DNA of 64,000 nt from Rhodamnia argentea (Eukaryota; Streptophyta; Magnoliopsida; Myrtales; Myrtaceae): contig NC_063150.1 of assembly GCF_020921035.1 (NCBI RefSeq), forward strand, positions 6,386,001 to 6,450,000, written 5' to 3'. Below the pieces are notes generated by a model. That model saw nothing but the letters and a program-made list of their open reading frames with translations. It did not search any database and was not told the origin of the DNA. A program made the translations under genes and the position numbers. Shown one piece after another: positions 265 to 52,879 of this stretch. Position 1 is the first letter of the stretch. Each line of letters begins with the position of its first letter.

Positions 265-3124
265 TTACACACCTCCTCCTCTACTTTGAATCTCACTGAT
301 GGCTTTCATCAGGCGAACCCCGTTCGCAGGCTTTTCAACGTGGAAATCCATCCCGGCCTCGAATATCTTCTTCACTTCGGCGCCTGAAGAATGAGCAGTC
401 AAGGCTATGATCGGCGTGTGGATTCCATATCGTCTCTCCTCCTTTCTGATCTTTCTTGTTGCTTCAAAACCATCCATTGCGGGCATCTACATGAACACAG
501 GAGATCAGTGAAAATACTAGCTTAAGGTTACTTCAGTTGTCTTTATGAAGTCCAAATCTTGTAAGTACTATCTGAACTCAACAAGGAAAATTTCGAGAGG
601 CCTAACAATCTTTTGAGCTCTTCAGGGGAGTTTAAGAACTCGCTGCTGATATTAGTGTTTCCGGCAGTTTAAGCATGTTCTAATATCATGGTAAACTTCG
701 GCTTAATTTGAAAATGGTCGTAAGTCTAAAAGCTATACCTGGCAGTCCATCAATATGTACTCGTAAGGACGGCAAATATCTGAAACTCCTCGCTCCCTTA
801 GCTCGTCAATACCATCACGAATCAATTGTACAGCTTCTTTTCCATTTTCGCATAGCTGAACCGTTGCTCCAAGATTGGAAAGATTACGTAGAGCCAGCTT
901 TCGCATTATCTCGCTGTCATCGACGACCAATACTCTCTTCCCACTCAAAGGTTTCTCCCTGCTGGTATTTCCAGTTTCTTCTGCTAAAGGTTTGGCTGCT
1001 TCCGCATTTTGGACCGGTCTCGCCTTCACCTGTTCGCTCGGTCTTTTCTGCAATGAGCCCCCGAATTCTGGAAGAAGCCTTATCACTCGAAGCAAACGGG
1101 TGCCGTGAAAGGGCTTGGACATGATGATATCGTCAGGGTCGAGTTTGCCCTTAATGGCCCTTAGGTCAATACTTCTCATTGTCGGCTTATCTAACCACAC
1201 AACCTTACAACGAGCGCTCGGAATGAGTTTCCTAAATTCAGTCACTGCCATGAATATTTGTTGAAATGGTCCAGCACTTGCGTCGATTATAAGTAGCACG
1301 AAGGCCGCTTGATCTTTGGGACTAGGACTCCTGTACACGGGGAGACTTTGGTCTGCTCCGTCCAGTGATCTGAGAGGCACGCCCCTGACTCTACCTGGAG
1401 CCTTCTTGCACGAAGCGGATTTGCTCAATCTTTCGATCCTCCAACTCATCTCTGATTTTCCTGAAGAACTATGGTATGCAACGTTGACGACCTTCATTTG
1501 TACCTTCTTCAGAATCATAGGAAGATCCTGCCATTGGCTCGCCACGAGAACTTCTATTCCTAGTTTTTCCAGGTAACTCCGACAAGTTCTCCGGCGCTCT
1601 TCATTCTGGATCAATAACACGACATGAGATCCTTCCGACTTGGGGCTACGCGCTTGTCTGGTGCTCGAGCTAAGAAAGCTCAGCCCAGGACTAGTGGCAC
1701 TGGTTAGCCCAAGACGACACGCTGCTCCATAACCTCCGGCCTCGAGGTCTTCCTCTAACAGTTTTGTAGCACCTGCGTCGCATGGGGCAAGGAAAACATT
1801 GAACCTGAAGCACGTTCCTCTCTCGCCCATGTCCTTATCCCTGATCGTTATATCTCCACCCATGAGGCGGACCTGTTACAGTGTCTCGATTAGTGAAGAC
1901 GAATAGTTGCTTATACTATCGAAGATGGTATGATGATAATTTCTCTTTCCACCAGACGAAACCCCTCGATCGCGAGCAGTACAGTTTTATAAAGCAAGCT
2001 GCTTCCGATTGATTATAGCGGCTAATAGTCCTAATGCTGTAGTACGGTTACAGAATGTAAATACAGAATATGGCATGCTCATAAATAAGAGGTACAGAAA
2101 TTGGGAACATACCAGAGACTGAACAATGCCGAGGCCCAAGCCGGTGCCTTCTTGTCCTTGAGCTGTTTCTTTGACCTGGATATAGTTCTCAAATACCGAC
2201 TTCCGCTTTTCTTTGGGAATTCCTTTGCCGGTATCGTCCACCTCGAATACAAATTCCGCAGAATTAGGACTTCGCTGGAATTCGTTCGCAACCTCATCGC
2301 CACTGTCCTCGTCTTTCTTCTCACAGACCAAGCACATCAAGCGTTCCCACCCGCTACTCCTAGGGGAAGCGAGTATCGAATCTTCTAAGCTGGGTTTTTT
2401 AACCCATGCCCGGACGGATATGTGACCACCATCCGTAAATTTAACAGCATTGCTCAGCAAGTTGGATAGTATCTGTTTAAGCTTTCCTCTATCTCCCTTC
2501 ACAAGTGAATATCTGAGCACTGTGCCATCAGTAGGGTCTAAAACAACATCCACACCTTTTCTCATGGCCACTGGATGATACAGATCAACCACGTCCTGAA
2601 GAAGCTGAGCCAAATCGAATTCTTCTTCTTCCAGCAGCATTTTTCCGGCCTCAACTTTGCTCGTATCGAGAATGCGATTCAAAAAACCTGAAAAAAAAAA
2701 TGGAATGTTTGAACTGTCAGTTCTACGAAATCCGTCGACTTGCTCAAGGAACTACAAAAGTTCATCAACAGGTTTTACCCAACAAGTCCTTTGCACAAGA
2801 TTCCATCTGCTTCAAGTTCTTCTCGAGCTCCGAACCTGGAGAAACTTCTTCATAACTTATATCTATAAGGCCGATGATCCCGGCCAAAGACGCGCGAACG
2901 TCGTGGCTGGCTTGAGCAAAGGCATTGCTCTTGCTCATACTCTTGCTCTCGGCTTGCCTAGTCGCCTCCATCTGCTTTATAAGCACAGCTCGCAAGTGCA
3001 TCTCTATAACCCAGGCCCTCGCAATCAAGCATACGAGACTGAATATGGTGATGACCCCCACGGCAACCGATATCGCGAGAAGCAAGACCGTCCGCGTGCT
3101 CCCATGGCAAATGAAACCGATCAT
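265..3124 (-). CDS. CKI1: CKI1-like hybrid histidine kinase, N-terminally short (4 exons)
   Basis: Hybrid sensor kinase of the cytokinin/CKI1 phosphorelay. It should autophosphorylate on His, pass the phosphate to its own receiver Asp and then to HPt proteins. Exons on the minus strand are 3124-2779, 2687-2113, 1872-739 and 486-265, all with GT-AG introns and kept in frame, giving 758 codons. Residues 10-35 form one hydrophobic membrane segment. The H box is QASHDVRASLAG. The N box (LSNLLSNAVKFTDGG), G1 (DDTGKGIP) and G2 (GTGLGLGIV) are intact. The C-terminal receiver has VVDDSE, the acceptor Asp in YILMDCQMPAMDG (split by the last intron) and a late Lys in VEKP. Wording around QQMEATRQAESKSM matches CKI1 as I remember it. 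CKI1 is about 1,100 residues with a long ectodomain. Here an in-frame stop (3139-3137) lies just upstream of the first Met, and no ectodomain exon is visible to 5 kb. This is either a 5'-truncated copy or a gene with a missed first exon. Confidence 0.82.
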
Positions 3125-3139
3125 TGGATCTTCCAGTTA

Positions 3140-31941: not shown

Positions 31942-33058
31942 GGGGAAATTCCAAATGAGGGCATTGAGTGCCCTTATTTTCTCAAATAAGAGCAACAAAA
32001 GGGACATTGTTTCAAAAAAGAGTCCGAAAACCCTTCATTGTTTTAAAAAAGGGCCACAACAAAGGCATTTTCGTCATCTACTTTTTTTATTTTTTATTTT
32101 TTTTCATTTATTTTTTTTATTTTTTTTTTGTTGCGGCCGGTTAGGATTACCTAGCCCAGGCCCTTGCCGGCCTTGCCCAACCCTCATCCGTGGCCAAACA
32201 TAACTTGAGACCGGCCACCGGTGAAAAGGAAGGGAAAAAAAAAGGGAAAAAGAAAGAAAAAAATGAAAAAAAGAGAAGGGTATATTCATTAGAAGTTCTA
32301 AAATTTGTTAAAAAAGTGCAATTGAGTACTAAAATTTGCAAAAAATGCGATCGAATCCTAAAACTTGTCAAATTTGGTACAATCGAGCCCTTCCGTTAAC
32401 TTCGTCCAATTTGATTAACGAAAAATGCTGACGTGCCTTTTTTTTTTTAATATTCTCTCTCTAACATGGCGATAACATGGCTAAAACGACGTCATTTGGT
32501 TCGAATTTGATTTTCCATATAAATTTTATTTAAAATAATTTAAAAAATAAGCTTAAGAAAAAATCACAGAACCAGTGGCGAGGGCTGCATGTGTGTGTTT
32601 TTTATTTTATTTTTTAAAGCTTATTTTAAAATTTAATTTAAATATAAATTATATTAAAAATAAGATTCGAACCAAAACGACGTCATTTTAGCAACGCTTT
32701 CGTCATATTGGAGAGAGAAAATATCTTAAAAAAAAGGCACGAAAATATTAAGAAAGTCACGTTAGCATTTTTCGTTAGTCAAATTAGACGGAGTTAACAA
32801 AATGATTCGATTGCATCAATTTAATAAGTTTTAGTACTAGATTGCACTTTCGTGACAAATTTTAGGACTTTTAGTGAATACATCCCAAAAAGGAAATAAA
32901 ATATTAAAATAATAATAATAATAAATGGTGATAATGCCCTTGGTCATGTTCTTTTTTGAAACAATGAGTACATTAAAGGTCCTTATTTCAAATAAGATCA
33001 ACTTCAACCCTTATTTAAGAAAATGAGAGCACTTCAGGACTTTATTTATAATTTTTCC
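31942..33058. mobile_element. MULE-type TIR element with a nested fold-back MITE
   Basis: The ends GGGGAAATTCCAAATGAGGG and, reversed, GGAAAAATTATAAATAAAGT lead inverted repeats of about 140 bp, with phrases such as TTTCAAAAAAGAG and CATTTTCGTC. The flanks TATCTACGA (31933-31941) and TATCTATGA (33059-33067) form a 9-bp TSD with one mismatch. The interior has a GC-rich patch (about 32135-32225) and a second palindromic element at 32282-32881. No gene is recognised inside. Confidence 0.8.
32282..32881. mobile_element. Nested palindromic fold-back element
   Basis: The left arm (from ATTCATTAGAAGTTCTAAAA) and the right arm (to TTTAGGACTTTTAGTGAATA) are inverted over about 250 bp. Each contains a CTAAAACGACGTCATTT or AAAACGACGTCATTTTAGC block flanking an AT-rich core. 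It sits inside the 31942-33058 element, so it is the younger insertion. The words recur in the 13.2-13.5 kb repeat. A TSD is not clear. Confidence 0.65.
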
Positions 33059-39349: not shown

Positions 39350-39360
39350 TCTATAAATAC
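39350..39360 (+). promoter_or_regulatory. TATA box of the beta-xylosidase gene
   Basis: TCTATAAATACTC about 75 bp upstream of the start codon at 39426, an excellent plant TATA match. Confidence 0.6.
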
Positions 39361-39425
39361 TCACGTTTTTTTTTATAACACCCCACTCAATCCAGCACCC
39401 CCACTCCCCTCAAAACCGCCACGCG

Positions 39426-42400
39426 ATGATCGGAACCGCTGTCCCCGCCACCGCGGCAACCCTCGTGGTCGTCCTCCTCCTCACCTCCGGTGGCATCTGC
39501 CGTCTTGCTGTCGACGCCCGCGAGCCTTTCGCTTGCGACCCGAAGGACGAGAGGACGAGGGGTTTCCCCTTCTGCCGCGCGTCGTCCCCGATCCCGGAGA
39601 GAGCGAGGGACCTGGTCGGGTGGCTCACATTGCAGGAGAAGGTGAAGCTGCTGGGGAACACCGCGGCCGCGGTCCCGCGGCTGGGGATCAGGGGCTACGA
39701 GTGGTGGTCGGAGGCGCTCCACGGGGTCTCGAACGTGGGGCCGGGGACCCAGTTCGGCGGCGACTTCCCCGGCGCCACGAGCTTCCCTCAAGTGATCACG
39801 ACCGCCGCTTCCTTCAACGCTTCGCTGTGGGAAGCGATTGGGCAGGTGATCATCTGCCCACTTCTTCTCGGTTTGGTGAATCATAAAGCTGCATTAACCG
39901 AAAGAACAATTAGAAAAAGAAGCACAAGAACACTATCCTCTGAGTAGAATGGCCCACCATCTCCGCAGATGCTTTCTTTTTGAAAAAAATATAAAAAAAA
40001 TGGGATTATTCGATTTATCTTGTACGGGTTTTTCTATGTGTGTTCTTGACACATTTCTTAGGTTTTGACGTTTGTGTCCGTGTGCATCATCATCAATGTG
40101 GGAGCATAGGAAACGTCGTCGCTTTAGAACAATGCATCGGACATAATGCTTTTGAATGCACGAAAGGCTCAAAAAGGGAACTTTTTAAATAATACCCAAT
40201 TAGCGACTAATGATTACAATAAATTATAAAGGGTTAGCGAAGAACTATGACTTAATTTTCCCAAGATCTCGTATGATGCAGGCACTGCTTTCGCTCGTCG
40301 GACAAACAAGTTTTATTTTCTTCAGGAAGATTATGGCTGAATTGACTAAGAATGTACGAAAAATGAACTATAATAGATAGTGAATTCCGTGTGAGATTTT
40401 TCGCATATAATTGTTCGAATATGGTGGGTCCGTCCTAAATATTCAATAGATTAGACTATTTCCTCTTGTTTTCCAAATGGGTCCCGAGAAAGGGTCACAT
40501 TATTTTGGGTTTGTGGTTATTTATTGATTTAGTGAGATAAGTACAGTCTAGGTAATTATTGCCTGAAAAATAATGAGCTTAGGCAATCTCAATCAAAATT
40601 ATTGGGGCGGACCCAGTTTGCAATTTTATCTCTTGGCAACTTTTTCGGGAGTCGCAATCGGACGTCGGCTGGATTAAACGACGTACGACCTTTATCCTCT
40701 CTCACCAATCGCGCGACATGCCGTTGCGACCAGCCTCCCGAATTTTGCAAGTCCTAAAAGCGCAGCGTCGTTTAATGCTTCACCTTTTCGGCGCAGGTAG
40801 TGTCTGACGAGGCGAGAGCGATGTACAACGGAGGCATGGGCGGGCTCACCTACTGGAGCCCCAACATCAATATCCTGCGCGACCCACGCTGGGGCCGGGG
40901 ACAGGAGACTCCCGGCGAGGACCCCATCGTGGTTGGCCGCTACGCCGCCAGCTACGTGCGAGGGCTACAAGGGAGCGACGGCAGCGGCCGGCTGAAGGTG
41001 GCGGCCTGTTGCAAGCACTTCACGGCCTACGATCTCGATAACTGGAACGGGGTCGATCGCTTCCACTTCAACGCGCGGGTAAGTTTTTGCTTGGCTCACC
41101 GTGAATTTTATCAAATTAACATACGAAACCATTATGTTTATTGATGTGACAGATGACTTGATCAATAGAGAGGTATTGGACCCGTCAAGCTTGACATCAC
41201 AATCGAACCTGAATGTCCTCACCTAAGTCTGCTCGTGCTTAAAAAACTTATTGAACTCTTTATGTGGAGCCGATCGGAATGGGGTAGATCAATGCACTTG
41301 AATTAGAAGTCGATCGTTTAATTCAGGCGCGTCTGAGCGACGTAGTCAAATTTCTATCGGAGTGCATCGATATTAGCAAGATCTGAGTGTTTGAAGCGCA
41401 TCCGGCAATCAAATTAAACTCAAAAAATTGAATTGAAAAACCCGATGGAATTTAGTCATTACTTGTCAAATTTACCATGAGACTCTTATATTAAAAGTGG
41501 GCTAAATGAATCGTGACGCCGGGTGCGGATTCCGATCGTCGGAGCAGGGCCATCCATTCCTGTCAGTACGGTATGGCTAATTTAATGGCGCGACTTTGAA
41601 CTTTTGGTTGGTGATCAACTTGCGTAGGCTTTATGGCACTATGACGACAAGAATATCGTTGTCACGATAGCTTTTTAATGGCCGCCCATCTCGTTCCATG
41701 AGAAGTTTCTAGAGCATCTCTATCGAAGCGGAAAAACAAAATTGGTTAGTTCTTTAGTAAATGAATTGGAATAATGACAAGAATGATCTTTGAACTTTAA
41801 TCTAACGTGTAATATGATCTTTGTATTTTTTATTTAAAATATATTCTCCGAACTTTAACATAACGTGTAATGTGATATCCAAACTTAATTTGTTATGAAA
41901 ATGAGAACATATGGCTAGCGGCGCGTTCTCATGTTCGAAACATTTTTTTGGACAGGTGAGCAAACAGGACATGGAGGACACGTTCAATGTCCCGTTCAGG
42001 ATGTGCGTGATGGAAGGGAAGGTGGCCAGTGTGATGTGCTCGTACAATCAAGTCAATGGAGTCCCGGCCTGCGCCGACCCTAATCTCCTCAGGAAAACCG
42101 TCCGCGGTGCGTGGCGGCTCGATGGGTAATGCCTTCTACTCCTCGGTTCGTTACATTAGTTGCGCAAAATCGAAGGACGATGATGTGCTAAGCTAGGCTG
42201 CACATGGGTTTAATTTTTGTGTGCGATTCGACGTGGGAGTGCAGGTACGTGGTCTCCGATTGCGATTCGGTCGGGGTATTCTATGACAAGCAACACTACG
42301 CGTCCACGCCGCAACAAGCCGTTGCCGATGCGATTAAAGCAGGTTCTCTCTTCGATTTCTCACTTTAATGATGGTGATAATTTGGAAAAGATGGACAAAA

Positions 42401-44161
42401 GTCAGAAAATTAAATCAAAAATTGAGAAAGGGTAATCTCACATTTTCACATTTCACACAGGACTAGATTTGGAATGTGGCCCGTTCCTCGCTACGCACTC
42501 GGGGGAAGCGGTGAGAGGCGGCCTGTTGAACGAAGCCGAAGTCGATGGCGCTTTGCTTAACACACTGACGGTCCAAATGCGGCTGGGGATGTTCGACGGC
42601 ACGCCGTCGGCCCAACCGTACGGCACGCTCGGTCCGAATGACGTGTGCACCCCGGCCCATCAGGAGCTCGCCCTTGAAGCCGCTGGGCAAGGCATTGTCC
42701 TCCTCAAGAACCAGGGACCGACCCTCCCTCTCTCCCCTCGCCGCCACCGCACCGTCGCCGTCGTCGGCCCCAACTCGGATGTCACTGTCACGATGATTGG
42801 GAACTACGCCGGTGAGCATTCTGGTCGCTTAGCCCAAAAATCAAAAACTATTTCTAATTATGTGAGATTGGAATAACGATCTGAATTTAAATTATCAATG
42901 TACATGTAAGTCTAAAATATGAGATTAGACCAATTTTTAACAATGATTCTTCTTTATTAGGTGTTGCATGTGGATATACAACTCCTCTTCAAGGAATTGG
43001 CAAGTACACAAACACGATACACCAACAAGGTTGCGTGGACGTAGCTTGCCACGACGACAAGCTATTCGGAGCAGCGATTGAGGCGGCACGCGGAGCCGAC
43101 GTGACGGTCTTGGTGATGGGGCTCGACCAGAGTATCGAGGCCGAGTTCAAGGACAGGGACAGTCTCCTCTTGCCGGGACGACAGCAAGAGCTCGTGGCGA
43201 AGGTGGCCATGGCCTCCAAGGGTCCGACCGTACTAGTCTTGATGTCCGGTGGTCCTGTCGACATCTCCTTTGCTAAGAATGATCCACGGGTGGCCGCCAT
43301 TTTGTGGGCCGGTTACCCCGGCCAAGCTGGCGGTGCGGCCATTGCCGATATCTTGTTCGGGTCAACCAACCCAGGTCTCTTCCTTCTTTTTTTTAATAAT
43401 TCCTTATAAGGGTAGAAGTTATTTGAACTTATTTTGGACTTAAATCATAGTTAATTGTCTTATTTCATTTCCCTTAAGTTTGAAGTGACTAGATTCGTTA
43501 AAATGAAAATTAATTTACCATTTTTTATTCCGCTAAAATAATTTTGAACTTAACATTATCTTGTTCAGGAGGAAAACTACCTATGACATGGTACCCACAA
43601 GATTACCTAGCAAGCGTACCCATGACCGTGATGGACATGAGGCCCACGGGATCGAACCTTTACCCGGGGAGGACCTACAGATTCTACCAAGGCCCGGTAG
43701 TGTACCCGTTCGGCCACGGGATGAGCTACACCCAGTTCGTCCACACGATCGCCGCCGCTCCCGCGGCGGTGGCCGTCCCCCTCGACGGCCGCCGGCCGGC
43801 GAACGCCACGAACTCCGGTAGGGCCGTGAGGGTCACGCACGTCCGGTGCGCCAGGCTCTCTCTCGGGGTCCAGCTGGACATCACGAACGCCGGGGCGAGG
43901 GACGGGGCCCACACGGTGCTCGTGTACTCCACGCCCCCGGGAGGCGGTGGTGGGAGCTGGGTGCCGCAGAAGCAGCTGGTGGGCTTCCAGAAGGTCCAGG
44001 TGGCGGCGGGGGCCCGCGAGAGGGTCCAGATCAACATCCACGTGTGCAAGTACTTGAGCGTGGTGGACAGGCTCGGCGTTAGGAGGATTCCGTTGGGGGA
44101 GCACAGGCTTCATATTGGGGATGTCAAGCACTCGGTGTCGCTTCAAGCTGAGAGACTCTAG
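39426..44161 (+). CDS. BXL: Beta-D-xylosidase (glycoside hydrolase family 3), 7 exons
   Basis: Secreted wall enzyme expected to release xylose (and in this group often arabinose) from xylan and arabinan side chains. Exons: 39426-39845, 40797-41078, 41956-42125, 42245-42342, 42461-42811, 42961-43374 and 43569-44161. All are GT-AG with consistent phases, giving 775 residues, the usual length. The N-terminus is a hydrophobic signal peptide ([13 protein letters not shown]). Substrate-pocket motifs: [37 protein letters not shown]. The catalytic nucleophile is D296 in VVSDCDSVG; the acid/base Glu lies in [13 protein letters not shown] (E500 or E502). The C-terminal fibronectin-type domain follows [10 protein letters not shown]. 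It is closest to BXL1/BXL2-type enzymes, and I cannot separate the two. Intron 2 carries part of a small fold-back repeat. Confidence 0.96.
41765..41890. repeat. Partial fold-back MITE in beta-xylosidase intron 2
   Basis: Phrases such as AATGATCTTTGAACTTTAAT and AACGTGTAATGTGAT match the family at 54966-55295 and 58059-58336. Only one arm is clear. Confidence 0.45.
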
Positions 44162-45363: not shown

Positions 45364-45388
45364 ATTTTAAAGAATTATTCGTTCAACA

Positions 45389-46260
45389 ATGGAGTCAGAA
45401 TCAATCAATGTTATGAACCGGGATATGGTGAAACTGGATCGGTTCGATGGCAACAATTCCGCTCTTTGGAGAGACAAGATAATGTTTCTCCTCACCGCCC
45501 TGAAGATTTCCTATATGCTCGACCCCAGTTTAATGCCTATAGAGGATCCGGTGCCTACCACCGAAGGAGTAGAACCTAGTACAGACGATGTCGAGAGGGT
45601 CAACAAGGAGAGGAAGAAACGTGAAGAAGACGAATTGCTTTGTCGAGGCCATATACTGAACACGTTATCCGATCGTCTCTATGACTTGTTCACCGAGACG
45701 AAGTCTGCTAGAGAAATATGGAATGCGCTTGATTTCAAGTATAAAGCAGAGGAGCAAGGTACGAACAAATATCTAATCGCTAAGTATTTTGACTTCAAGT
45801 TTGTTGATACTAAACCCTTGTTGGAACAAGTCCACGAATTGCAAGTATTGGTCAATAAAATTCGTGCTCTCAAGATAGATATTCCAAAATCTTTTCAAGT
45901 TAGAGCAATTATTGCAAAATTGCCTCCTAGTTGGAAAGATTATGGAAAAAGAATGCTGCATAAATCTGAGGACATCACTTTGGATCAAATTCAAAAACAT
46001 CTTCGCATTAGGGAAGAGTCATGTTTGCATGATAAATCTGTTTTGTATGATACCAAAGTGAATTCTGTGGAGGGAAATGGATTTCAGTCCAAAATCTACC
46101 AAAACTCGAAACGCAAGAGAGAGCAGAATTTTAAGAAGCCATAGAAAAAGAAAAAGGGTTGTTGCTTCGTTTGTGGCAATGAGGGTCACTATGCAAAGGA
46201 GTGCGGACATCGCAAGAGCACATTCAAGGACAAGAATACTTTATGAGTTAAGGCAGATGT
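45389..46260 (+). pseudogene. copia gag with zinc knuckle, interrupted
   Basis: Starts MESESINVMNRDMVKLDRF, the usual copia gag opening (DGNNSALWRDK). It runs 251 codons to a TAG at 46142. In the same frame after the stop comes the CCHC knuckle (CFVCGNEGHYAKEC), then a second stop, TGA, at 46244. Confidence 0.9.
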
Positions 46261-46264
46261 AAAT

Positions 46265-47552
46265 ATGGTTGAAGAAAACTATGTGGCCATGGTTTCAACC
46301 AAGTTTTCGAACTTGAATATTTCCGAAAAGGTTAAGGATTCTGTAGCCATGATTTCTGAAATCAATTTTGCCACTGTCGAATCTACTTGGTGGGTCGATT
46401 CTGGTGCAAATGTGCACATATGCAAGGATCAATCAATGTTTAAGCACTTTGAAGAGATTGTTGAAGTGCATCTTCAAGAGATTGAGATGGCAAATAAAAC
46501 TCTTGCAAAGGTTGCTGGAAAAGGCACTGTCATTTTAGATTTTACTTCCGGAAAGAATGTTTCTCTTGTTAATGTACTATTTGTACCCGAAATTAGGAGA
46601 AATCTGGGTTCCGTTGATCCGCTTTGTAAAAGGGGGTTTCGGGTTTTGTTTGAGTTCGATAAGGTTATCTTGTCGAAGAATGGGCTGTTTGTGGGAAAGG
46701 GTTACGCCAATGATGGCATGTATCAATTGAGTATCAATAATAATATTGTGTCTTTTCGCTTACGTTGTTGATTCTTCTCATTTATAGCATAATCGATTGG
46801 CACATTTAAATTTTCGCTATTTACGGAATATGAAAAAGTTAGACTTGATAAATTTTAATGGAGAATTTGATAAATGTGAAATCTGTGTTAAGTCCAAGTT
46901 AACAAAGAAATCATTTCCTAGTGTTAAGAGAAATTCAAATGTATTAGATTTGGTGCATAGTGACATATGTGAATTCAATGGCATGATAACACGTGGTGGT
47001 AAAAGGTATTTCATTACCTTTGTGAATGACTGCAGTAGATACTTATATGTCTATCTCCTAAGATCAAAGGATGAGGCGTTTACTATGTTTAAAAAATATA
47101 ATGCTGAAGTGGAAAATCAATTAAAAAGGAAAATTAAAGTCCTACGTTCAAATAGAGGCGGAGAATATTTCCTAAATGATTTGTCAGCCTTTTGTGAAGA
47201 ACATGGTATTATTCACCAAGTTTCGGCACCGTACACTCCACAACAAAACGGTTTGGCTGAAAGAAAGAATAGGTCTTTAGGAGAAATGATTAATTGTATG
47301 CTTTCGAATTCAAAGCTACCAATTAATCTTTGGGGAGAGGCATTGCTTACTACATGTTATATTCATAATAGGATACCATCCAAGAAAAATAACATCAGTC
47401 CATATGAAGTTTGGAAAGGCAGAAAACCAAACTTGTCACATATTAAAGTGTGGGGGTGTTTGGCATATTACCAAATACCGGATCCTAAGAGAACAAAACT
47501 TGGTCCTAGAGCTATGAAAAGTGTATTTATTGGATATGCTGAGAACAATAAA
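46265..47552 (+). pseudogene. copia protease and integrase, broken
   Basis: The protease active site WWVDSGANVHIC is near 46390. A frameshift near 46755 and a TAG at 46785 precede the integrase zinc-binding region (HNRLAHLNF.. CEICVKSK). The catalytic core shows the first Asp (LVHSDICEF) and the Glu (NGLAERKNR). The second Asp position is Asn (RSNRGGEYF, codon 47151-47153), so integrase would be inactive. Coding is cut at 47552 by an insertion. Confidence 0.88.
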
Positions 47553-48353
47553 GACAGGCCTCTTTATACCGGCCATGATGTTGCACCTCACTAAAATGGT
47601 GAAGGACAAAGTCGTGTCTATGGCCCCCATCCGTGACAACCCTCGAAATAGAAGCATACAGAGGAATTGGACCCTTTCTCCCACCATTTTCGCAGAAAGC
47701 TGAGCTTGCATTTACACCTCCATGGACCAAGGCTAGGCTACATTCTCCAGCTCGTTTGTTGCATTTTCTTCCCACCGACTCATATATCCGTGGGTATACG
47801 GTGCTGAATGCGCATATCCCTCCCGCTAGGGCTGGTCTTCTCGGAGGTTTGTTCCAAATGAAGCTTATGGGTGCTGTGGATCACCGCCTTTATGTTGTGT
47901 CAACTCACAGCCCTTCCTCCACGTACCACCGGTGCTGAATGCCTCGGTGCAGCTGGTCCACTTCTGTCTTGCTGCGGCTATAGCAAGTTTTTGGAGTTTG
48001 GTTTTGGAGCTACTCATCCTCGGTTCCAGGATCTTGCTAGTTCGGGTGTATTGGGGCGTTTGGTTTTTCCTCGCTTTCGGTATTTCCACGCCTTTTGTTG
48101 CTGTTCTTTTCTCTTTATTTGTGTCGCCTTTTTGTAATCTTGTATTCCGCTGCCCTCTCCCTTGCGGTCCGCTTGCCGACGGGTATTGCGTCCAATACAT
48201 TCGCATGTATCTTGCAACCGGATCACCGTTGAACCATCTCGCGCACCGACGGCGCCATTTATGGTTCATGGTTTTTGTGTGTCCGGTTCTCTTCTTGTAC
48301 CTAGTCCTTTTGGAAAGTTCAATACATTCTTACCTTACCAAAAAAAAAAAATA
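47553..48353 (+). mobile_element. Poly(A)-tailed insertion in the copia element, LINE-like
   Basis: About 800 bp foreign to copia, interrupting the integrase frame. It ends TTACCTTACC followed by an A-rich tail. AATAAA lies at both junctions (47547-47552 and 48354-48359), compatible with a short TSD. No reverse transcriptase domain is visible. The 3' end looks like that of a 5'-truncated plant LINE. A SINE or retrocopy is possible. Confidence 0.6.
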
Positions 48354-48359
48354 AATAAA

Positions 48360-50232
48360 GCTTATAGGCTTCTTGATTTAGATTCAAATGTCATTGTAGA
48401 ATCAAGAGATGTTGAATTCTTCGAGAATAAGTATTCTACGGATTCTGAAGTTATTGAGAATAATGCTCAAATACAAGATACAAATAATTCGGAACCCATA
48501 GAAACACACGTAGATTTTCATGAGAAAATAACAAATGATTATGAAATCGTGATTGAACCTAGGAGAAGCACTAGAGCAAGAAAATCAAAGGATTTTGATC
48601 CAGATTTTATCACTCATGTTTTCCTCGTAGAAGGAGACAGAGATAATAATGTGGTAAATAAATACCCCCAAATATTAAATTTAGAAGATGATCCTAAAAT
48701 TTTTAGTGATGCTATGTCTTCTAGAGATGCTTCCTTTTGGAAAGAAGCTATAGATGATGAAATGGACTCGATCATGTCCAACAATACTTGAGTATTGGCA
48801 GATTTACCAAAAGGATCTAAATTTATTGGGTGCAAATGGGTTTTCAGAAGAAAATACAATTTCGATGGTACTGTCCAAGCTTTTAAGGCTAGGTTAGTAG
48901 CTAAAGGGTATAGGCAAAAAGAAGGAATAGATTATTTTGATACTTATGCTCATGTAGCACGTATAACATCTATTTGAATTCTTTTTGCTCTAGCATCCAT
49001 TTATGATCTTTGTGTTCATCAAATGGATGTTAAAACCGTTTTCTTAAATGGAGATTTAAATGAGGAAATTTACATGGAACAACTAGAGGGTTTTGTTCTT
49101 TCTGGAAATGAGAGGAAAGTATGTAAAATTGGTCAAATCTCTTTATGGGCTTAAGCAAGCATTAAAGTAGTGGCATGAGAAATTTGATTTAGTTATATTA
49201 TCTAATGGTTTTAAGCATAATAGTGCTGATAAGTGTATTTATTCTAAATTCACTAAAGACAATGGTGTTCTAGTTTGCTTATATGTTGATGATATGCTTA
49301 TCTTTGGAACTAATATGGCCGGAGTCATTAACACTAAGAAGTATCTAACTTCAAATTTCAAAATGAAAAACTTGGGCGAAGTAGATACTATCTTAGGTAT
49401 TAAAGTTAAAAAACATAGTGGGGGTTATTCCTTAAGCCAATGTGATTATGTTGAGAAAATATTAAATAAATTTAAACATCTTGGTTTCAAAGAAACAAGT
49501 ACTCCATATGATATTAGTGTCAAATTAAATTATAATATTGGTAGAACAGTAGCACAACTTGAATATGCAAGTGCTATAGGGTCTTTAATGTATGCGATGC
49601 ATTGTACTAGACCCGATATTGCTTTTTCCGTATGCAAGTTGAGTAGATACACTAGCAATTCAAATATAGAACATTGGAATGCAATTACTAGAATTTTTGG
49701 TTATCTTAAGAGAACTAAAAATTTGGGATTGTTCTATAACAATTATCCGGCAATATTAGAAGGATACACCGATGCTAGTTGGATTTCTAGTGTGGGAGAT
49801 AAACATTTTACTTATGGATGAATCTTCATGTTAGGTGGATGTGTTGTTTCTTGGGCGAGCAAGAAACAAACATGCATAGCTCACTCAACTATGGAATCCG
49901 AATTTATTGCTTTAGCAACAAGTGGGAAAGAAGTTGAATGGATAAGAAATTTGTTGATAGACATCAAATTATGGCCTAGTCTTATGCCTCCTATTGCTAT
50001 TCATTGTGACGGTTAAGCTACTTTAGCAAAGGCTTATAGTAGCATTTATAATGGTAAGTCTAGACATATCAGTCTAAAACATGAGTACGTGATACAATTG
50101 ATTCATGATGGTACCATAACAATTGTTTACGTGAGGTCAAGCAAGAATCTAGCGGATCCTTTTATAAAGGCTCTAACAAGAGATGTGGTAAAGGCGATCT
50201 CAAAAGAAATGGGGCTGAAACCCTTTGATTAA
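48360..50232 (+). pseudogene. copia reverse transcriptase and RNase H, broken
   Basis: Reverse transcriptase motifs: [20 protein letters not shown], and the catalytic CLYVDDML near 49277-49300. RNase H shows [16 protein letters not shown] and a C-terminal KNLADP. Stops occur at 48789, 48975, 49168, 49819 and 50014, and there is a one-base shift near 49128 before SLYGLKQ. Confidence 0.92.
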
Positions 50233-51583: not shown

Positions 51584-51821
51584 TAGATAATAGAGAAAAT
51601 TTCAAAAAAGGGCCTCGAGTGCTCTTAATTTCTCAAAAAAAGGCTCGAAGTAAATTTTATTTCAAACAAGGGCCTCAAGTGTCCTCCTTGTTTCAAAAGA
51701 GGACCTAATAAGGGATATTTTCGTCTTTTGCATTTTAAAATCTGTTCTTTTTTAATTTTCCCGTGTTCTTTTACTTTTCTTTTTCTTATTCCTTTCCTTT
51801 CTCCTCTCCCCTCTCCCACCC

Positions 51822-52275
51822 ATCATGGGCTTCAGCTTCTCTTCAATTGTGGGCATCAGCTTACCCTCTCCTCCGAACGTCCTTGAGCAGCACCAAATCA
51901 ATAATCAACCCAACTTAGAAAAAAATCGGCAAACGTTCGACGAGAAGCAAGAACCACCCAACGCTTGCTGGAAAAATCAAGAGCCGAAAAGAAAACCGTC
52001 ATGCCCCGCACTTGGTGAGGAACTCCGAAATGGGGTGGTGAGAACAGAGGATCGGAGACTTCTCGCCCTGGCGATACGAGCAACATCCGACGGGAGGTCC
52101 TCATAGGTGATCACGGGTATGGTCTTCTTGAAGGACTCGCGATCGGTCTAGCCATCAAGGCCATGGCGGCGCATGTACTCGACGCGAGCATTGCGGGCGG
52201 GGGTCTCGGCAAGGACCCACCTCGGGACCTCATCGATGGCTGTGACTACCTTGATGAACTGGAGGGCCTTCTTAT
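51822..52275 (-). pseudogene. Captured GH3 acyl-acid amido synthetase fragment with retained intron
   Basis: The minus strand reads ALQFIKVVTAIDEVPRWVLA, ETPARNARVEYMRRHGLDG, a stop, then DRESFKKTIPVITYEDLPSD. After a frame change comes GEKSPILCSHHPISEFLTKC, and about 125 bp later FGGEGKLMPTIEEKLKPMM. This is the N-terminal region of the GH3 family (amino-acid conjugation of auxin or jasmonate), in order. The 125-bp gap (about 52006-51882, ending AAG) sits where GH3 genes have an intron before SGTSGGERKLMPTIEE. Stops and frameshifts make it non-functional. Confidence 0.85.
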
Positions 52276-52567
52276 TGTTGTCGGGGAGGTTGTGGTCGGA
52301 TGGGAGTTGAGTGGGTAGGAGATGGAGACGAGGGAGGCGTAGAAGGGGTTGGATCGGAGGGTGACATAAGAGCAGCAGGAGTTGCGGAGGCCGTTGAAGG
52401 CGAAGCCCTCGGTGAAGTTGTCGTTGGTGGTGTCCTCGCTGGCGAGTTGCTTGTTGTTGATGTACACTTGCTGAGAGAGGAGGAGGCGAGCTTGGTGGAG
52501 GAGGAGGAGGAAGAAGATGGAGAAGAAGGAGGAGGGAGCGTAGAGAGAGACCGTGGACTCTATGGAT
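52275..52567 (-). pseudogene. Captured LysM receptor-like kinase N-terminus
   Basis: The minus-strand frame reads ESTVSLYAPSSFFSIFFLLL then HQARLLSQQVYINNKQLASE, NGLRNSCCSYVTLRSNPFYA and SLVSISYPLNS. This fits the signal peptide and first LysM region of LYK4/LYK5/NFR5-type receptors (xQQxYxNNxQL...C.SYxTFRSxPPYxTxxSIxxLLN). The codon before ESTV is ATA where a start would be expected. No kinase domain is present; the fragment runs straight into GH3 sequence. Confidence 0.75.
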
Positions 52568-52879
52568 TCCTCTATTGCTCAAAAATCAAAATAAGAATTG
52601 GAGTTGTTGGAGGAGGAAGAGGAAGATGATGACGGGGAGTCGAGGACGACCTGCAATGAAGGAAGGAGAAAAAAAGGGAAAAGGAAGGAAAAAAAATAAA
52701 GAAAGGAAAAATGGGAAAAAATTAGAAAATGTAAAAAGACAAAAACACCCTTACCGAGGCCCTTTTTTGAAACCAACAAGGCACTTCGGACCCTTATTTG
52801 AAACAAGGTCTACTTCATGCCCTTTTCTAAAAAAACTAGAATACTTGATTCCCTTTTTTGAAAATTTCCCTAGATAATA

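Follow-up and report, generated by a model that had tools for sequence, protein, structure and literature searches.

How did 5'-end DNA of a LysM receptor gene and of a GH3 gene come to lie side by side between inverted repeats in the genome of Rhodamnia argentea? The sequence that raises this question, positions 51593-52870 of a 64-kb window (the whole stretch of DNA analyzed here, C1:6386001-6450000), is a 1,278-bp non-autonomous Mutator-like element (MULE). An earlier note, made from the letters of the window, had placed an element of this length at these coordinates with a perfect 9-bp target site duplication (TSD), and all of these values were unchanged on re-measurement. The two copies of TAGATAATA flanking the element agree at 9 of 9 positions, and their length falls within the 9-11 bp characteristic of MULEs. 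The inverted repeats described in that note are also present, but the arms exceed its estimate of ~150 bp once gaps are allowed. Without gaps the arms comprise 139 nt with 72% complementarity, and gapped local alignment extends them to ~215 bp, with a score of 113 versus a maximum of 30 among 300 base shuffles. The resulting terminal inverted repeats (TIRs) of ~210-215 bp are degenerate and lie within the range of about 100-500 bp expected of long-TIR MULEs. The core of the element has a G+C content of 49-59%, compared to about 30-38% on both flanks, and reading through its open reading frames (ORFs) disclosed no transposase-like ORF.

Table 1. Features of the element and its target site (window coordinates)
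Feature	Position	Strand	Basis
Target site duplication, left copy (TAGATAATA)	51584..51592		Sequence comparison
Left terminal inverted repeat, with ~30-bp internal subrepeats	51593..51807	+	Inverted-repeat alignment
Start of GH3.6 exon 2 (TFGGEGKLMPTIEEKL)	51831..51887	-	Alignment to parent locus L030
Intron 1 of GH3.6, retained (about 124 nt); the window copy still has the GT donor but no longer the AG acceptor	51888..52011	-	Ends hand-counted from alignment
Exon 1 of GH3.6, beginning at codon 11, with codon 63 a TAG stop (52148-52150) and a frameshift near 52068	52012..52303	-	Alignment
LYK5/GH3 junction, CCAGCC in both parents	52298..52303	-	Alignment
LYK5 codons 1-88, covering the signal peptide and the first part of LysM1; start ATG changed to ATA	52298..52563	-	Alignment
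LYK5 sequence directly upstream of the start codon	52564..52583	-	Alignment
LYK5 sequence from farther upstream, some 100-170 nt ahead of the start codon	52589..52663	-	Alignment
Right terminal inverted repeat	52660..52870	-	Inverted-repeat alignment
Target site duplication, right copy (TAGATAATA)	52871..52879		Sequence comparison

Read on the minus strand, the cargo runs from LYK5 upstream sequence through LYK5 codons 1-88 and then from GH3.6 codon 11 across intron 1 into exon 2. Between the two upstream pieces of LYK5, about 80 bp are absent. The earlier note had called the element a chimeric Pack-MULE with parts of a LysM receptor gene and of a GH3 gene, and had proposed that the segments be aligned to proteins of both kinds and that parent loci and sister copies be sought in the same genome. 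Both segments gave significant protein matches. Among PDB proteins, the GH3 segment matched GH3.6 (E 7e-9) and GH3.5 (E 1e-4) and the LysM segment matched LysM receptor kinases (E 9e-7), while the scrap of GH3 exon 2 gave no significant PDB match on its own (E 0.6). The Pfam scores lie under their curated cut-offs (GH3, 23.2 bits against 23.6; LysM1_NFP_LYK, 22.1 bits against 36) and point in the same direction as the protein matches. The top database protein for the LysM part was LYK5 of R. argentea itself (P0001, 70% identity, E 2e-32), and that for the GH3 part was GH3.6 of Eucalyptus grandis (72%, E 1e-24).

Both parents were located in the same genome. The LYK5 locus, at C2:30095500-30103500 (L029), encodes a protein 100% identical to P0001, and the exons of the GH3.6 locus, at C2:28559500-28567000 (L030), are 92-96% identical to the E. 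grandis protein. The two genes thus share contig C2, with start codons 1,535,559 bp (1.54 Mb) apart. The window copy is 87.5% identical to the LYK5 parent over 289 columns and 76.6% identical to the GH3 parent over 517 columns, intron included. Since intron 1 of GH3 is present in the element, the captured material came from genomic DNA rather than mRNA, and the retained intron rules out an origin by retroposition. The element thus has the attributes of a Pack-MULE, namely fragments of ordinary host genes (LYK5 and GH3.6) with no transposase-like ORF seen and a kept intron, and its two separate parent loci make it one with several parents.

A MULE-like element with eroded ends (L029:3289-3767) was also noticed upstream of the donor gene LYK5, about 370 bp from its start codon. 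It was considered as the capturing element and set aside. Because no TSD was found for it, on inspection by eye as well, and TIRs of this type are common, with others lying within the window, its adjacency to LYK5 is weak evidence.

At the point where the two gene pieces meet, the motif CCAGCC corresponds both to LYK5 nt 261-266 and to GH3 nt 31-36, and the parents share exactly these 6 bp. Microhomology of at least 6 bp occurs at 0.24% of random LYK5 x GH3 breakpoints (200,000 draws). The join falls at the identical place in 23 of 23 aligned copies of the element, which indicates that the junction formed once. Among the genome matches listed, it was seen only in copies bearing at least one of these TIRs, and the joined segments did not turn up at an ordinary host locus free of TIRs, the finding that the earlier note had said would count against its proposal. 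With both parents in hand and a junction bound to the TIRs, that proposal is supported at the DNA level.

The assembly searched comprises 346.7 Mb in 74 contigs, and 40 of 1395 first-look candidates were scored, which makes the copy number a minimum. The sister copies proposed in the note are numerous, with both gene pieces present at at least 25 loci. These 25 consist of the 23 aligned copies, a 24th that a Copia element interrupts (L032) and a heavily deleted locus that has both pieces (L028); the alignment omits these last two as well as L026, which has one end only and the GH3 piece. Since L004 and L006/L043 represent a single insertion on C1 that was duplicated along with its flanks (97.8% and 96.2% identity), the 25 loci correspond to at most 24 insertions. 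Among 23 elements, 22 of them chimeric and one the LYK5-only relative L031 described below, 15 have TSDs that match at 9/9 positions and 6 have TSDs that match at 8/9. In a control of mispaired flanks (n=506) the corresponding figures were 1.0% and 3.4%, together 4.4%; element ends were permitted a 2-base shift in both the table of TSDs and the control. L015, L017, L028 and L026 were left out of this table (the matches to L015 and L017 end before the right end), two of the 9/9 duplications (L002 and L021) are runs of A and carry little information, and L004 and L006/L043 were both counted.

A tree of the 23 copies contains three groups with support, namely A with 10 copies (the window copy among them), B with 4 and C with 6, along with three further copies. 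K2P distances are 0.05-0.17 within group A, 0.08-0.15 within B, 0.05-0.06 within C and 0.02 between L015 and L017, compared to 0.14-0.25 between A, B and C, and this spread suggests that amplification occurred in several bursts. Group C lacks the stretch matching element positions 958-1103, LYK5 start included, and in the sampled group C copies L016 and L019 the right TIR clusters with left TIRs (support 93/90).

Taken at the level of DNA, it is nearly certain that a non-autonomous Mutator-like element of R. argentea took up 5'-end DNA of LYK5 and GH3.6, two genes of one contig, and became a chimeric Pack-MULE. The join was made a single time, at the 6-bp microhomology, and the pieces would have been acquired by template switching during gap repair; the available text of PMC8277862 describes gap-filling or template switching as a capture model for animal Pack-TIRs. 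Transposition has carried the chimera to at least 25 places, presumably with MULE transposase supplied from elsewhere. The coding pieces of its copies have decayed, and the copies would have been methylated and silenced.

A more detailed form of the same explanation holds that capture was stepwise: a MULE that carried a longer LYK5 piece gave rise to a descendant that swapped the 3' part of this piece for GH3 DNA. A candidate for such a precursor exists in L031 (C3:5400984-5402247), a LYK5-only element with related TIRs and a TSD, TAAATTAAA, matching at 9/9 positions. Its continuous ~690 bp match 652 bp of LYK5, span the whole LYK5 stretch of the chimera and retain the 80 bp of upstream sequence missing from the chimeras. 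Over 280 LYK5 sites, there are 11 at which L031 has the state most common among the chimeras while the LYK5 gene has another, and 7 of these shared states are found in at least 21 of 23 copies. The chimera differs alone from L031 and LYK5 at 4 sites, and L031 differs alone at 32. The clearest shared state is TTC for GCC at codon 74, beside a common 3-nt gap. That said, some of the 11 shared states may reflect later changes in the LYK5 gene. Codon 32 is V in the elements, guava and E. globulus (A in Syzygium), and codon 49 is F in the elements and guava. Codon 40 is A in Rhodamnia and in elements such as L002 and L005, D in guava, E. globulus and Syzygium, and again A in several more distant plants. 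Some of the states that L031 and the chimera share are probably older LYK5 states, and the source was perhaps the LYK5 gene of the Rhodamnia lineage before its latest changes. Moreover, a tree of the LYK5 segment puts L031 with the gene and not with the chimera (support 0.788), and a tree of the TIRs places it neither with nor apart from the chimera. Stepwise capture is plausible, with a little less than an even chance.

Whether the chimera ever specified a protein is a separate matter. The earlier note had read a secreted LysM N-terminus directly into GH3, a reading that fails in the window copy, where the two pieces lie in different frames, the LYK5 start is ATA, GH3 codon 63 is a stop followed by one frameshift and the acceptor AG of the intron is gone. 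The codon phases differ at the junction, where LYK5 nt 261 occupies the third position of codon 87 but GH3 nt 31 the first position of codon 11. Barring early indels, the two pieces were therefore out of frame from the moment they were fused. Other copies are open in places. The LYK5 start is kept and the LYK5 part free of stops and frameshifts in 3 of 23 copies (L002, L003 and L043), L005 has compensating indels in this part, and these four have ORFs of 104-107 aa; the GH3 part is free of stops and frameshifts in two others (L015 and L017). In L017, a 266-aa ORF begins at the LYK5 ATG, quits the LYK5 frame early and continues with GH3 in frame, intron included. A motif scan also found frames, open from one stop to the next, in which later indels had brought together native motifs of the two genes, in L012, L018, L019, L021 and L025, while its hits in L001 and L010 depend on one short motif, in L001 a motif of the GH3 part.

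These ORFs and frames are the best case for a functional product of some copy, either a fusion or a truncated LysM peptide. Against it stand the junction, out of frame as described, and the survey of ATG-started sense ORFs (the two longest in each of 23 copies, listed to 150 aa, with splicing applicable to 6 of the 23), none of which has both pieces in native frame. The five copies with motifs of both genes in one frame are without a recognizable LYK5 start and have 2-4 frameshifts in the GH3 part, and a truncated peptide would contain only the start of LysM1. A functional product of either kind is hardly credible, and a fusion protein is made unlikely by the out-of-frame junction, the start lost in the window copy, and the stops and frameshifts.

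Selection on the coding pieces was judged across copies. For the GH3 part, comparing the copies with their parent gives a dN/dS of 0.50, and comparing copies inside a group or from different groups gives 0.35-0.74. These values might be taken to signal coding constraint, an idea rejected because neutral simulation gave means of 0.50-0.55 (95% ranges from 0.39-0.75 to 0.40-0.61), based on a substitution spectrum from groups A and C that includes the coding pieces and so is not fully independent of the test. Group B, at 0.35, is the sole group below the neutral range, and only slightly so. Group C argues to the same effect, with a dN/dS of 0.43 despite a stop at codon 82 in 6/6 copies and 2-4 frameshifts in each. 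For the LYK5 part as a whole, the corresponding values are 0.74 (copies against the gene) and 0.54-1.01 (copies against one another by group), partly above the neutral expectation (means 0.55-0.58, with ranges from 0.38-0.85 to 0.43-0.71 by divergence); with the TCC-rich signal-peptide codons removed the values are 0.63 and 0.45-0.91. An open, in-frame and constrained protein-coding fusion is not what the window copy presents. C-to-T changes, counted on both strands, affect 7-10% of CG and CHG sites compared to 2.6-3.7% of CHH sites, an excess of the pattern expected of methylated DNA, and the substitutions appear largely to fit neutral decay.

A further role would operate through RNA. The family could supply small RNAs that act in trans to dampen LYK5 and GH3.6, thereby linking glycan perception with auxin conjugation, and it does have sense-strand pieces of both genes. 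Exact 21-mers of LYK5 are found in 22, and of GH3 in 22, of 24 elements (23 chimeras and L031, with repetitive TCC stretches unmasked), and together the shared 21-mers cover 91 LYK5 and 55 GH3 start positions. In maize, siRNAs from gene-capturing elements silence donor genes, according to the available portion of a review (PMC13317346). Opposed to this are the mostly neutral look of the substitutions and the small number of exact 21-mers in any one copy, 0-28 for each parent. As far as sequence comparison can speak to it, such a source is very improbable, and slightly less probable still is its fuller form, in which dispersed, dual-target small RNAs would co-regulate in trans LYK5, for chitin or symbiotic glycan perception, and GH3.6, for auxin conjugation, in this lineage. 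Most likely the element has no present role and is a decaying selfish element.

Pack-MULEs were reportedly described in rice by Jiang et al. in 2004. The Rhodamnia element resembles those of rice in being a non-autonomous MULE with long TIRs, a 9-bp TSD and GC-rich pieces of captured genes; figures for rice are given in the available text of PMC8277862 and PMC4858842. It differs in coming from a eudicot tree of the Myrtaceae, with both parents on one contig and one chimera at at least 25 loci; for rice, the former source, as available, gives 36% of Pack-MULEs (481/1337) as multi-copy (PMC8277862). A closer likeness is the PM-ZIBP family of tomato, likewise an amplified eudicot Pack-MULE with differing TSDs among the copies listed, in which the accessible part of the report counts 14 copies, 13 with tandem TIRs and 1 with single TIRs (PMC3310237). 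PM-ZIBP captured one gene and has mostly tandem TIRs, whereas the Rhodamnia element captured two and has TIRs with ~30-bp subrepeats (PMC3310237, in the same part). With animal Pack-TIRs it shares microhomology at the capture breakpoint, often seen in animals, but the animal elements are mostly hAT and Tc/mariner, and the text available from that source reports no Pack-MULE in animal reference genomes (PMC8277862).

In the open-licence literature, no report was found of a Pack-MULE in Myrtaceae or of Mutator-like gene capture in Eucalyptus, and for Pack-MULEs with LysM cargo none that, judged by its listing, evidently concerns the present case. The element is a further Pack-MULE of a known kind that stands out by its copy number and by the completeness with which its origin can be traced. 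How MULEs acquire sequence, by what mechanism and in what order, is described as unsettled in the available text of two sources (PMC8277862, PMC3310237). Here a single genome offers a clean eudicot example, with both donors, the microhomology at the junction, a possible precursor that had captured one gene, and successive amplification bursts, and because the origin can be read in one genome, order and mechanism become testable with a few genomes of Myrtaceae.

Several other elements and genes were noticed along the way. A separate family of ~1.2-1.3 kb (L033, L035, L037, L040 and part of L038) has related TIRs and a common GC-rich core, and L033, L035, L037 and L040 are 86-96% identical to one another over their full length. 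By eye, we take the core of L034:1051-1314 (-) to resemble an IDD-type zinc finger and that of L042:718-1062 (+) a GRAS-type protein. A Pfam search with five eye-chosen ORFs of TIR relatives (L033, L034, L035, L039 and L042) gave nothing above cut-off, the one hit being a zinc knuckle with E 0.39, and the L042 ORF had no match in PDB. Within the window, a second MULE-like element lies at 31942-33058, with related inverted ends, an 8/9 TSD (TATCTACGA / TATCTATGA) and no cargo recognized by eye. The broken ORFs at 45371-49821 resemble, by eye, those of a Copia-type retroelement, although the stretch around 47600-48360 looks unrelated. Two genes were also picked out by eye, one resembling a beta-xylosidase at 39357-44161 (+) and the other a hybrid histidine kinase at 733-3136 (-).
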